DNA from: Candidatus Latescibacterota bacterium
GTDB taxonomy: Bacteria; JAAXHH01; JACQVL01
Direction: 5' to 3'
Assembly: GCA_016209865.1 (NCBI GenBank)
Contig: JACQVL010000167.1
Coordinates: forward strand, 1 to 6,737
DNA: 6,737 bases
How positions within the stretch are numbered: the first letter of the stretch is position 1; each line of letters starts with the position of its first letter. Shown in pieces: positions 1,161-5,002 of this stretch. The translations under genes and the position numbers were made by a program. A model generated the notes under the pieces. The model worked only from the letters and a program-made list of their open reading frames with translations, did not search any database and was not told where the DNA came from.

Positions 1161-1985
1161 TCATTCACTCAGTGTCCGCCGGTACAGCCAGATGAACCCG
1201 GCCAGGATGACGAGGAACCCAGCGGCCACGATGCCGAATTTCCGGCGGGTGCTTACCTCCGTCCGGGCGGCCCGGATGTCGGTGTCCACCTTCTTCAAGC
1301 TGGCCTTGACGGAATCGGCACGCGGGACGATCGTCTGAAAGACGAACACGTGGGAGACCTTCTGGCGGAACATCTCCCTGGCCAGGTCCGCCCCCGCGTC
1401 GATGTGATCGACCGGCACCCCCGCCGGCCTGAGGTCTGCGGCCGCCTGTTTTGCCTGCGCGATCGGAGTCAGAACGCCCGTAATCACCCCGTTGAACTGG
1501 TCAAGGATGTCGTCCGTGTGGCAATCCCCGCAGCGCTTCGGCGTCGAGATCTTGACGACGTCGGCGGGGACGACTTTGTGGTCGGAGTGGCAATCCACGC
1601 AGTTGGGAATAAATTCACCGACTGTTCCGTGAGGACTCGGGATGTAATTGTCACGCTGAACCTGATGGCACTTCCCGCACTGCTCGGGCACCGCCGTCGG
1701 GTCGGGGATGCCGATGTACCCGGCGTTCGGGTCGTGCGCCTGTTCTTTGACCATCGATTTGGGCGACCCCCCGTGGCAGTCCTGACACCCGATCCCGGCC
1801 GTCTTATGGACACTCTGCTGCCAGGCAGGGACGGCTTTGGACATCTCCTCGTCCTCCAGGCTCGCGTGGCAGGTGAGACAGCCGCTGCCGCCCGGCTGTG
1901 CCGCCGGAGGCTCCGCGCTCATGACGCGGACCGGGAGCAGGGGGACTCCGACCAGACAGACGAGCAACCAGAGGAGCCGCTTCAT
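1161..1985 (-). CDS. Membrane-anchored pentaheme cytochrome c of a Rieske/cytochrome b complex
   Basis: The 274-residue protein has five CXXCH heme c sites: CLTCH 36-40, CQDCH 67-71, CGKCH 103-107, CVDCH 129-133 and CGDCH 152-156. A Sec signal peptide covers about residues 1-24, with cleavage near VMSA. His60, His84, His119 and His136 are candidate distal axial ligands. Residues 157-249 contain no CXXCH and end in a charged, helix-prone stretch. One hydrophobic helix (250-268) followed by a short basic tail, RR at 269-270, should anchor the protein with its hemes in the periplasm. The start codon overlaps the cytochrome b stop in an ATGA (1982-1985), which implies translational coupling. Its operon position and C-terminal anchor match those of cytochrome c1 or f, so I infer that it receives electrons from the Rieske protein. 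The sequence is not of c1/f type and resembles generic multiheme NapC/NrfB-like cytochromes only through its heme motifs. The heme count is certain; the complex assignment is inferred from context. Confidence 0.93.
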   Translation of the reverse strand: MKRLLWLLVCLVGVPLLPVRVMSAEPPAAQPGGSGCLTCHASLEDEEMSKAVPAWQQSVHKTAGIGCQDCHGGSPKSMVKEQAHDPNAGYIGIPDPTAVPEQCGKCHQVQRDNYIPSPHGTVGEFIPNCVDCHSDHKVVPADVVKISTPKRCGDCHTDDILDQFNGVITGVLTPIAQAKQAAADLRPAGVPVDHIDAGADLAREMFRQKVSHVFVFQTIVPRADSVKASLKKVDTDIRAARTEVSTRRKFGIVAAGFLVILAGFIWLYRRTLSE

Positions 1986-3238
1986 TCTTTCTTCATGTCC
2001 TTCTCAGGCGGGGTGGAGGTCGGCGGCGCGGCGGCAGAGTCGGACTCCGCGATCCCGTGCGGCACCCCTTTCGTATCGAAATGGTAGCGTGTGCCGAACA
2101 TCGTCCGGTCAGTCTCGGCTAATGCGCCCAAGATGGTCAGGATGACGGCGACGCAGACGAACAGGATGCCGAGTGTCGTGGCGACCGGCCGGCGGGCCGG
2201 ATGCCGCTCCGGGGAGCGATCCAGGAAGGGAAGCAGGAATAAGCCGAGGATGACCAGCCCCGTCCCGATGATCCCGACAAGCTTCGGGAAATACTTCAAC
2301 ACTTGATACATCGGCAGGAAGTACCATTCCGGCTTGACCCCGACCGGGGTGTTGAACGGGTCCGCTTTCTCATGGAGCGGGAGCGGAGCGTAGACGATGA
2401 AGATGAGCATCCCCGTGAAGACGAGCAAGGCGACCAACAGCTCCTTCATCACATGGTTCGGGAAGAACGATTTCCCACCTTCTTGCTTGAGGTCCTCCAC
2501 GGATTTCTCAGGCCCCTTCGTGCTATCCAGGGTCGAAATCCCTTTATACCGGATCAGGACGAGATGGAGGCTGACCAGGAAGACGAACAGCCAGGGCAGG
2601 ACGATGACGTGGACGGCGAAGAACCGGGTCAGGGTCATCCCCGTGACGTTCTCCCCGCCGCGCAGGGTCAGGAGGATGTATTTCCCGATGACCGGCGCGG
2701 ACCCGGCGACCTCCGTCCCGACGGTCGTGGCCCAGTAGGAGAGCTGATCCCAGGGCAGCAGGTAGCCGGTGAACCCGAAGCCGAGGGTGACGCCGAGCAG
2801 GAGGAACCCGATCAGCCAGGTGATCTCCCTCGGCTTCTTATACCCTCCGTAGAAGAAGACCCGGACGGCATGGAGGTACAGGAAGGCGATCATGAAATTC
2901 GCCCCGTACGCGTGGCTCTGACGAATGAGCCAGCCGAACCGGACCTGCTCCATCACGAACTTGACGCTGTCGTAGGCCGATTCTGCGGAGGATTTGTAAT
3001 ACGTCATCAACAGTAAACCGGTAAGAAACTGGCTGGCGAAGAATAGAAGCGTGATCGTCCCGAACGAGAAGAGCCAGTTGACATGCTTCGGGACGGGTTT
3101 GGTCAGTTGCGTCTGGATGAACGTGATGAGCGTGGAGAGTTCGATCCGGTCTTCAAGCCAGCGGTTGACGCCGCTGACACTGTGATTCAGTCTATCTTTG
3201 AGCCAGTGATTGACACCCCTGACGTATTTCGTCAGCAT
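1982..3238 (-). CDS. Cytochrome b (b6-subunit IV fusion) of a quinol-oxidising Rieske/b complex
   Basis: This 418-residue membrane protein carries the quinone sites and two b hemes of a bc/b6f-type complex. Residues 23-231 align by eye with cytochrome b6 and 258-372 with subunit IV. Heme ligands are His109/His123 and His210/His225. The second pair is separated by 14 residues, as in b6, not 13 as in mitochondrial-type cytochrome b. PWDQ (162-165) and the Qo motif PEWY (303-306) are intact, and RRPVATT (349-355) matches subunit IV. About seven membrane helices are visible: near 55-80, 109-130, 140-161, 206-230, 266-285, 322-338 and 354-372. This 4+3 pattern lacks the eighth helix of bc1 cytochrome b. 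Ser58 stands where b6 has the Cys that attaches heme c(i). Residues 8-18 and 23-33 are a duplicated amphipathic segment. The tail from about 375 is polar. An SD-like GGAGAA lies 4 nt before the ATG. The gene starts 33 bp after Rieske and its stop overlaps the pentaheme start. Confidence 0.96.
   Translation of the reverse strand: MLTKYVRGVNHWLKDRLNHSVSGVNRWLEDRIELSTLITFIQTQLTKPVPKHVNWLFSFGTITLLFFASQFLTGLLLMTYYKSSAESAYDSVKFVMEQVRFGWLIRQSHAYGANFMIAFLYLHAVRVFFYGGYKKPREITWLIGFLLLGVTLGFGFTGYLLPWDQLSYWATTVGTEVAGSAPVIGKYILLTLRGGENVTGMTLTRFFAVHVIVLPWLFVFLVSLHLVLIRYKGISTLDSTKGPEKSVEDLKQEGGKSFFPNHVMKELLVALLVFTGMLIFIVYAPLPLHEKADPFNTPVGVKPEWYFLPMYQVLKYFPKLVGIIGTGLVILGLFLLPFLDRSPERHPARRPVATTLGILFVCVAVILTILGALAETDRTMFGTRYHFDTKGVPHGIAESDSAAAPPTSTPPEKDMKKE
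3155..3223 (-). repeat. Imperfect direct repeat, period 45 bp, at the cytochrome b N terminus
   Basis: The 24-nt segments 3155-3178 and 3200-3223 match at 19 of 24 positions and are offset by exactly 45 bp, or 15 codons. They encode the paired sequences GVNHWLKDR (residues 8-16) and GVNRWLEDR (23-31). DNA-level similarity suggests an internal tandem duplication. The second copy aligns with the single N-terminal amphipathic segment of cytochrome b6 (WFEERLEI in plant b6), so the first copy is the added one. Confidence 0.75.
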
Positions 3239-3271
3239 CGTCTTCTCCGAACCAAGAGGAAGCCGTGAGCA

Positions 3272-3748
3272 CTATCCGCCGAGGATGACCTTCTCCCCGC
3301 TTTGGGCCACGCTGATGGCGACGAGGGGTTGAGGCGGCGGTCCCCCGGTGACCTGTCCCTTCTGGTCGAATTTCCCGCCGTGGCAAGGACAGAAGAATTC
3401 CTGGCCAGTCTCCACCCATTTGACGACGCAGCCCAGATGCGTACAGACCGCGTTGAAGGCGATGAACCCGTTCGGCCCGTTGACGACGATGGCTGGACGG
3501 CCGCGATAGATCACCGTCTTCGACCCACCGAACGGGATATCTGACGCGGCGATCTCGACGCGACTGGCTCCTTCAGCCTCCGGCGGTGGCTCGAGGTACC
3601 GGGTGATCGGGTAGAGCGCACCCAGGAACCCGGCCGCACTGAGCGCTCCTAAGCATCGCTCCAGAAAGCGACGCCGCCCACCCGGTCGTGTGGGTGGTTT
3701 GGGCCTGGCAGGTTTAGCGGGTTGTGGTACGGTATCCGGCGTGGCCAT
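3272..3748 (-). CDS. Rieske [2Fe-2S] protein of a cytochrome b complex
   Basis: The 158-residue protein would take the first electron from quinol at the Qo site and pass it to the cytochrome c partner. Both cluster motifs are complete: CTHLGC at 102-107 (Cys102 and His104 as ligands) and CPCHGG at 120-125 (Cys120 and His123), with Cys107 and Cys122 placed for the usual disulfide. CTHLGCVV followed by a short insert resembles b6f and menaquinol-type Rieske proteins. The N terminus has a long Pro/Lys-rich stretch (5-22), then RRRFL at 25-29 and one hydrophobic helix (about 32-48). This is a twin-arginine-type signal that would stay as the membrane anchor, although the S/T normally before the arginines is a Gly. 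GGGGAGA lies 8 nt before the ATG. This is the first gene of the leftward operon; cytochrome b follows after 33 bp. Confidence 0.96.
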   Translation of the reverse strand: MATPDTVPQPAKPARPKPPTRPGGRRRFLERCLGALSAAGFLGALYPITRYLEPPPEAEGASRVEIAASDIPFGGSKTVIYRGRPAIVVNGPNGFIAFNAVCTHLGCVVKWVETGQEFFCPCHGGKFDQKGQVTGGPPPQPLVAISVAQSGEKVILGG

Positions 3749-3937: not shown

Positions 3938-3958
3938 AACCCTGATTGTGTGAGGGTT
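3938..3958. repeat. Short inverted repeat upstream of the lipoprotein gene
   Basis: AACCCT (3938-3943) and AGGGTT (3953-3958) are perfect inverted copies separated by 9 nt, and four T residues span 3957-3960 on the plus strand. It could be an operator or a weak hairpin in the lipoprotein leader. A 6-bp match is short enough to arise by chance. Confidence 0.3.
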
Positions 3959-4009
3959 TTCCTGATCGTGCCCGTTTCCTGGTCGTGTGTTCCCGCCATT
4001 CGTCTGTCC

Positions 4010-5002
4010 ATGAGCGCTCCTATGACCCCGCGTTCCCTGTTCATCGGGATGATGTGTGGTCTGGCATTCCTTGTCGGTTGTGCCGGCTCGAAGCCGGTCT
4101 CCTTCTCGGTGACCCGGCCGCCGTTGCTCGGAACCGCCCCGGTGAAAGTCATCGCCTGTCTCGGGTTTGGTGGAGAGGATGTGGAGGCTGGGGCGCGGGT
4201 GGAATCCCGGCTACTTCAGCTCCTGGCCGTGTCCGGGACGTACACCGTCGTCCCGCCGGGCCCGATCCGTGCCGCATTGGGCGGGCACTCGCGCGAACGC
4301 ATCGAGATGACGGATACGTTAGCGCTGGCCGTGGGACGTGCGGTCCGCGCCGACGTCGTGCTGCTCGGCCAGGTGACCAGTGCGTTCACCGAATGGTATG
4401 GCGAGGAGAAGAAGTTTCGGAACATCGAGGTGGCTACGACGGAGACGCTCCCCCGGCGCGGGGCGACAAAACTGGTGACCGTGCCATACTGGGAACCGTT
4501 TGTGCTGCAGACCGCCTCGCTGGAGGCCACCATCCGGGGGTTGAGCGTGGAGACGGGCCGCGAGGTCGGCATGGAGCGGATGGAATCCAGGAATGCCTTC
4601 AGAATCCCACTCCCGGTCGCTGTCGAAGATGCTCCGAAGAAACCCACGATCGTCAAGCGGGTTAATCCTCAACTCGTTGACGTGACCGCCACAGAGCTGG
4701 CGAGAAAGCTGGTCGAGAGTCTCTCCTGGCATCCGGTGTCCTTCACCCGGTACGTGAAGCGGGGAGTCAGAGGGGGGGATGAGGGACTGATTGCGGCGTT
4801 GAAGGGGGAGTGGGATCGCGCGCTGGCCATCTGGGAACGTGCGGTGCGTGAAGCGCCCAACAGTCCGGGCGCCTGGAATAACGTGGCGATCGCGTACGAG
4901 CAGGCGGGCCGGCTGGCCGAGGCACGGCAGGCGTACGACCGTGCGCTGGCGTTGCAGCCGGGGGACCCGGTGATCAGGAAGAATCAGACAGAAGGATGGT
5001 AA
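4010..5002 (+). CDS. Lipoprotein with CsgG/LpoB-like domain and C-terminal TPR repeats
   Basis: Numbered from the ATG at 4010, the protein has 330 residues. A lipoprotein signal sits at about 5-24: MTPRS, then a hydrophobic core, then the lipobox LVGC with Cys24 as the lipidated residue. Residues 44-125 show the beta-alpha-beta pattern of CsgG/LpoB/TolB-N-like domains: an opening strand (VKVIACLGF), a helix, a strand with TYTVV, then a helix with ALAVGRAV and strand VVLLGQV. The middle (about 126-250) is beta-rich and unrecognised. Two TPR-like repeats fill about 258-318, followed by a short tail. Such proteins usually sit on the periplasmic face of the outer membrane as adaptors; the partner is unknown. 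ATG 4022 is an equally good start; GTG 3950 would extend the frame but precedes the lipoprotein signal badly. None has a clear ribosome site. It is divergent from the respiratory operon and convergent with the kinase. Confidence 0.85.
   Translation: MSAPMTPRSLFIGMMCGLAFLVGCAGSKPVSFSVTRPPLLGTAPVKVIACLGFGGEDVEAGARVESRLLQLLAVSGTYTVVPPGPIRAALGGHSRERIEMTDTLALAVGRAVRADVVLLGQVTSAFTEWYGEEKKFRNIEVATTETLPRRGATKLVTVPYWEPFVLQTASLEATIRGLSVETGREVGMERMESRNAFRIPLPVAVEDAPKKPTIVKRVNPQLVDVTATELARKLVESLSWHPVSFTRYVKRGVRGGDEGLIAALKGEWDRALAIWERAVREAPNSPGAWNNVAIAYEQAGRLAEARQAYDRALALQPGDPVIRKNQTEGW

Follow-up and report, generated by a model that had tools for sequence, protein, structure and literature searches.

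A stretch of 6,737 nucleotides from a Candidatus Latescibacterota bacterium (assembly GCA_016209865.1, contig JACQVL010000167.1; G000:C116 in our set), hereafter the window, carries an operon that, judged by its genes, encodes a Rieske/cytochrome b complex of the bc1/b6f superfamily. The genes lie on the minus strand in the order Rieske protein, cytochrome b, and pentaheme cytochrome c, in a draft genome of 3.75 Mb that is 83% complete. We consider it highly probable that the product is a b6-like, quinol-oxidizing complex in which a pentaheme cytochrome with a C-terminal anchor, and not cytochrome c1 or f, serves as the exit subunit. There is strong support for the pentaheme protein as a dedicated subunit in the c1/f slot, because its gene or those of its relatives adjoin cytochrome b in ~18 phyla in permuted order, a fusion to the end of cytochrome b lies in frame, no c1 was detected in the phylum, and the cytochrome b concerned is often the only one in its genome.

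Conservation of the operon and the search for c1 and f

The sequence-only reading of the window had described a tight three-gene operon, and the 33-bp gap, the ATGA overlap, the five CXXCH motifs, and the C-terminal anchor were all verified (Table 1). The Rieske protein matches PF00355, and cytochrome b matches PF00033 and PF13631 in its N-terminal part and PF00032 in its C-terminal part. The cytochrome b sequence is b6-like: the paired heme-b histidines can be read in it and aligned to b6, and PEWY stands at the Qo site in the window and in most relatives. The heme cn cysteine of b6 is a serine in the window protein and in every member of its clade. The pentaheme cytochrome finds only the generic multiheme models C7, c3, and C554 in Pfam, and none of the three proteins reaches a cut-off in NCBIfam.

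The same reading had noted that no c1- or f-like gene is present, which held on a wider search. The cytochrome c1 model (PF02167) gave no match above its cut-off in the window genome (83% complete) or across the phylum set of 16 genomes, which are mostly labeled Candidatus Latescibacterota, with some labeled Gemmatimonadetes or Zixiibacteriota. For cytochrome f (PF01333), the best score in the window genome was 18.5 bits against a cut-off of 30.4, and it belonged to another gene. The pentaheme protein itself matches neither model.

An orthologue of the pentaheme subunit is present in 16/16 genomes, the others being 43–49% identical to the window protein, and it directly adjoins cytochrome b in 15 of them. 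On contigs that extend far enough, the pair is preceded by the Rieske gene and followed by a gene of the PIG-L family. The cytochrome b of this operon is the sole PF13631 match in 13 of the other phylum genomes, two of them assembled into 7 and 9 contigs at 96–97% completeness. Because the gene occurs in every genome of the phylum set and the operon is conserved, chance neighborhood of the pentaheme cytochrome and Rieske/b is excluded. Stop-to-stop frames of ~680 aa, considered as fusions of cytochrome b to the pentaheme protein, were rejected as overlapping out-of-frame readings.

The exception among the 16 is G001 (same record as G019), in which the operon is split (loci L055/L014 and L134). 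Rieske and pentaheme genes share one contig at a spacing of ~200 bp, with a stub between them that resembles the ends of cytochrome b, and an intact cytochrome b occupies the ancestral site on a different contig, next to the PIG-L gene and the tetratricopeptide repeat (TPR) lipoprotein gene. Such a split would be expected from a duplicated operon with complementary losses, in an assembly with a contamination of 6%.

Two further Rieske/b clusters occur in the window genome. One (C193) consists of Rieske, cytochrome b, and a bd-like protein; the other (C289) of Rieske, b6, and subunit IV, followed by a coiled-coil diheme protein where the contig ends. A TAG within the C289 cytochrome b match proved to be merely the b6/subunit IV split. 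A complete second Rieske/b/c1 operon and a loss of the linkage to cytochrome b, named beforehand as findings that would speak against the proposal, did not appear, but given these two clusters, and the alternative complex III (ACIII) beside the oxidase of most relatives, the complex cannot be taken as complex III by default.

The association extends well beyond the phylum. A genome-wide search seeded solely with the pentaheme alignment returned 79 loci, whose phyla are given as labeled in public records. Cytochrome b lies within 4 kb of the multiheme gene in 52 of the 79, from ~18 phyla, and a Rieske gene was also found in 44 of those 52. Most phyla have the multiheme gene downstream of cytochrome b, whereas Omnitrophota and some Planctomycetota have it upstream of Rieske-b; with gene order permuted across phyla, the association therefore survives rearrangement. 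On a Nitrospinota contig (L104), the reading frame at the end of cytochrome b continues into that of a protein bearing four CXXCH motifs and one CX4CH, which lacks a signal peptide. A search for the gene order across genomes had been suggested with the original proposal, and adjacency was kept in 15/16 genomes of the phylum and in ~18 phyla; together with the overlap, the anchor, and the in-frame Nitrospinota fusion, this is in line with the earlier preference for a stoichiometric subunit over a chance neighbor.

Other arrangements of related proteins were seen in the same survey. In Phycisphaerae, a hexaheme-anchor protein is fused to an FAD/NAD(P)/4Fe-4S module (L128:5968-8568 and L122:5401-8532), in an operon that comprises a 13-heme cytochrome, Rieske, b6, subunit IV, and the hexaheme-anchor fusion. 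The fusion is compatible with a cytoplasmic C-terminus, and as a natural fusion, it bears on the NAD(P)H-making Rieske/b complexes proposed for anammox bacteria. In G014 (L185:4252-6790), another b6-like cytochrome b adjoins a protein with eight hemes that weakly resembles hydrazine dehydrogenase.

Hemes, ligands, and length variation of the c subunit

The CXXCH motifs of the window protein begin at residues 36, 67, 103, 129, and 152, and there is no CXXCK; the C-terminal hydrophobic helix falls at about residues 250–268. Five histidines outside these motifs (60, 84, 119, 136, and 212), one per heme, are invariant among the phylum orthologues aligned. Since each of the five hemes has a conserved extra histidine, the sequence favors bis-His hemes of the electron-transfer type over an open catalytic site. 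H60, H119, and H212 align with histidines of the soluble five-heme paralogues and of the nonahemes, although these columns depend on the alignment; with the same dependence, H136 is missing in the soluble paralogues, and H84 is replaced by Met, Lys, or another residue in most nonahemes. The soluble paralogue, which has no anchor, is found in most phylum genomes (L029-L041), away from Rieske/b in the loci inspected.

The relatives differ in heme number in a regular manner. CXXCH spacings in the Latescibacterota pentaheme are 26, 31, 21, and 18, with a tail of 119. In the nonaheme, the commonest form, they are 26, 31, (39, 23, 38, 16), 23, and 20, with a tail of ~128, and in the undecaheme of L087 they are 22, 31, (40, 23, 39, 23, 38, 16), 23, and 20, with a tail of 135 (the middle portion in parentheses); L100 is similar. 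The Chloroflexota forms with 12 or 13 hemes carry additional N-terminal hemes ahead of the nine-heme pattern, and the NC10/Methylomirabilota loci encode the nonaheme form. Segment profiles matched pentaheme hemes 1–2 to nonaheme hemes 1–2 in 31/35 cases and hemes 3–5 to nonaheme hemes 7–9 in 34/35. A plain MAFFT alignment had paired the pentaheme with nonaheme hemes 1–5; this pairing was discarded, as the segment profiles place hemes 3–5 on 7–9. Because profiles and regular spacings agree, the pentaheme appears to consist of both ends of the nonaheme (hemes 1–2 and 7–9), with a middle that grows by heme pairs in the nine- and eleven-heme forms. The window protein is the shortest of its multiheme family. 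In the cytochrome b tree, its clade forms one all-five-heme group with a support of 99; a second five-heme protein, from Nitrospiria (L067), stands apart on a long branch.

We give an even chance to a broader reading, in which the exit subunit would be a modular heme wire in a widespread, uncharacterized class of menaquinol-oxidizing Rieske/b complexes. Its anchored end (three hemes, stalk, and anchor) and its two-heme end would be fixed, pairs would be inserted or removed in the middle (5, 9, or 11 hemes), and Chloroflexota would have added N-terminal extras (12 or 13).

AlphaFold2 models of the pentaheme (predicted local distance difference test score, pLDDT, 85) and of the nonaheme of L078 (pLDDT 88.7) have the same C-terminal three-helix pattern, with the last helix continuing into the anchor, a position also scored as a hydrophobic helix in the pentaheme orthologues. 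In the pentaheme model, this helix spans residues 216–271, of which ~34 precede the anchor outside the membrane. The nonaheme model superimposes on HAO-type octaheme proteins with Z 10.6 and a root-mean-square deviation (rmsd) of 5.1 over 276 residues. The pentaheme gives Z 9.2 and rmsd 10.8 against HAO and Z 8.2 and rmsd 7.6 against NrfA, values that for helical proteins are merely suggestive, and a Foldseek structural search with it returned no match at E ≤ 0.001.

Redox type, proposed mechanism, and alternative functions

The Rieske cluster motif of the window reads CPCHGGKF, against CPCHGS.Y in b6f (aligned b6f motif CPCHGSQYD). Across the family, wherever the motif was read, the Ser was always absent and the Tyr nearly always. 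In the yeast Rieske protein, loss of the Ser or the Tyr lowers the potential by ~130 or ~65 mV, respectively, as cited in a passage of PMC12954380. The lack of both residues predicts a low-potential complex of the menaquinol type.

On this basis, menaquinol would be oxidized at the Qo (PEWY) site; one electron would reach the N-side quinone site via hemes bL and bH, and the other would pass via the low-potential Rieske cluster to a heme of the pentaheme subunit, a direct transfer that we infer. The pentaheme chain would then carry the electron to a periplasmic acceptor. Relatives, whose version of the subunit has extra heme pairs between its fixed ends, may have a longer wire.

Several observations weigh against this proposal. 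COX1 is above the cut-off in 15/16 phylum genomes, and 15/16 have an ActF-like protein of ACIII. G006 has an apparent actABCDEF set (a five-heme ActA, a large FeS ActB, ActC, ActD, a monoheme ActE, and ActF, named from gene order and sequence features rather than a family model) ahead of a caa3-type oxidase whose subunit II has a fused heme domain. With ACIII in 15/16 genomes and a full ACIII-caa3 operon in G006, the oxidase does not depend on the Rieske/b/pentaheme complex, which is not the sole quinol oxidizer there. Oxygen respiration in these genomes thus has another quinol:cytochrome c reductase, and the Rieske/b/pentaheme complex is probably used under a different condition or with a different acceptor. 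The window genome, at 83% completeness, yielded no ActF and no convincing COX1; its COX1 candidate was a weak match, read by eye as an NnrS-like protein, and was set aside. Nor is the cytochrome family exclusive to a Rieske/b role: in Nitrospinales/Nitrospirae, an anchored nonaheme lies directly downstream of pyruvate:ferredoxin oxidoreductase genes (L088:2622-7224, L098:2609-7236, and L071:1859-6458), with no Rieske or cytochrome b nearby. The L104 fusion stands on a truncated contig that is cut within cytochrome b, and no full-length fusion of cytochrome b to a multiheme protein was found in 24 Nitrospinota genomes. Finally, if the last helix of the pentaheme model is straight, the hemes could sit tens of angstroms off the membrane and far from the Qo side, unless the helix packs along the complex.

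That ACIII already serves the oxidase in most relatives would also suit a complex working mainly in the reverse or a bifurcating direction, either reducing quinone from a high-potential periplasmic donor or reducing NAD(P), as proposed for Kuenenia (PMC12954380), and Phycisphaerae do carry, beside Rieske/b, such a hexaheme-anchor protein joined to a flavin/NAD(P)/FeS module. The window operon, however, has no flavoprotein or FeS module, and the low potential predicted for a Rieske protein without Ser and Tyr is opposite to the >+300 mV of Kuenenia, so that we regard this direction as unlikely. In another reading, the multiheme protein would be a terminal reductase akin to NrfA or the octaheme reductases and fed by Rieske/b, which would make the operon a quinol:substrate reductase. 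Judged by their predicted folds, pentaheme and nonaheme come closest, among multiheme proteins, to NrfA, HAO, and octaheme nitrite reductase, and Nitrospirales often encode an octaheme nitrite reductase next to a Rieske-cytochrome b pair (PMC12342949). This is nevertheless quite improbable: the pentaheme match is weak (Z near 9, rmsd 8–11), five CXXCH without CXXCK and five extra conserved histidines leave no obvious open site, and a heme number that varies (5, 9, or 11) between fixed ends suits a wire over an active site. The presence of a soluble, anchorless five-heme paralogue elsewhere in most of these genomes raises the thought that the operon-linked cytochrome, too, is a co-transcribed partner that docks transiently. 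We give this very little credence, as the operon-linked protein is itself anchored, has stalk residues that do not vary, and has a start overlapping cytochrome b, and a fusion to the cytochrome b end lies in frame in Nitrospinota.

Around the operon, the window also holds an exported PIG-L/Mca-like deacetylase gene (3-1139), which follows the operon here and in nearly all relatives, and a divergent upstream gene for a TPR lipoprotein-like protein (3950-5002) with weak DUF3280 similarity, found in the same place in L051 and L134. The N-terminus of cytochrome b (3140-3220) contains a near-repeat, GVNHWLKDRL / GVNRWLEDRI, that is single copy in the relatives inspected by eye.

Table 1. Features of the Rieske/cytochrome b/pentaheme operon, in window coordinates.
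Feature	Coordinates	Strand	Description	Basis
Rieske [2Fe-2S] subunit, 158 aa	3272..3748	minus	motif CTHLGC...CPCHGGKFD; without the potential-raising Ser and Tyr	Pfam; alignment to b6f Rieske
Gap between Rieske and cytochrome b, 33 bp	3239..3271	minus		
Cytochrome b, 418 aa	1982..3238	minus	four-helix b6-type part fused to subunit IV part	Pfam
ATGA overlap	1982..1985	minus	cytochrome b stop and pentaheme start	read in sequence
Pentaheme cytochrome c, 274 aa	1161..1985	minus	signal peptide, five CXXCH, helical stalk, C-terminal anchor	
Predicted transmembrane anchor	1179..1238	minus	about residues 250-269 of the pentaheme protein	alignment; helix end in the model

Comparison with known systems

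The c subunit is the least conserved part of a key energy-converting complex, and the multiheme form amounts to a second large solution across ~18 mostly uncultured phyla, in which annotation that seeks only c1 or f would miss such complexes. Heme number in this slot would be a tunable trait, and the five- and nine-heme forms offer a natural comparison for what is gained from a longer chain, be it reach, electron storage, or choice of acceptor. In the open literature, subscription literature not being covered, we found no description of the five-heme form, its fixation across a phylum, or the paired-heme ladder, and no open paper combining nonaheme, Rieske, and cytochrome b. What appears to be new is that the pentaheme corresponds to both ends of the nonaheme, the longer forms having additional heme pairs in the middle. 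Earlier work had already suggested multiheme acceptors in early bc complexes (Dibrova 2013, as cited in a passage of PMC5317091).

With cytochrome bc1 and b6f, the window complex shares a Rieske and cytochrome b core and, on the outer side, a c subunit anchored by its C-terminus, but c1 and f hold a single heme c and have no detectable sequence relation to the window cytochrome. What likeness there is to HAO and NrfA would lie in the predicted fold, whose N-terminal part is packed with hemes and leads into a long helical bundle at the C-terminus; the window cytochrome differs in having no catalytic CXXCK signature, in its membrane anchor, and in a sequence identity of <20%. Methanoperedens has a Rieske/cytochrome b cluster with two pentaheme cytochromes plus a canonical c subunit (PMC4683180), and thus, by published gene content, also encodes pentahemes with Rieske/b, but it is archaeal and the canonical subunit is reported alongside.

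Other parallels come from bacteria with a multiheme cytochrome c beside Rieske and b. In the bc-like operon of Nitrospina gracilis and Methylomirabilis oxyfera, the only c subunit is an "atypical octaheme" cytochrome c (PMC3578206); these complexes differ from the window in having more hemes and, in Nitrospina, a split b. In Kuenenia stuttgartiensis, an anchored hexa- or octaheme cytochrome c replaces cytochrome f (Kustd1480-1485 and Kuste4569-4574; PMC12954380). Published hexa- and octaheme versions of this kind mean that, while a dedicated pentaheme subunit in place of c1 or f is strongly supported, the substitution proposed by the sequence-only reading is not new in principle. Compared by published description (Kustd1485/Kuste4573), Kuenenia and the window share a b6-like cytochrome b, a Rieske protein, and an anchored multiheme c subunit. 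The Kuenenia complexes have split b6/subunit IV, a predicted heme cn, NAD(P) oxidoreductase subunits, and a Rieske potential of >+300 mV, whereas in the window b is fused, the heme cn cysteine is replaced by Ser, the Rieske protein has neither Ser nor Tyr, the c subunit has five hemes, and there is no flavoprotein. With its anchored multiheme c subunit and no c1 or f, the window complex belongs with the Rieske/b complexes of the Kuenenia and Nitrospina kind.

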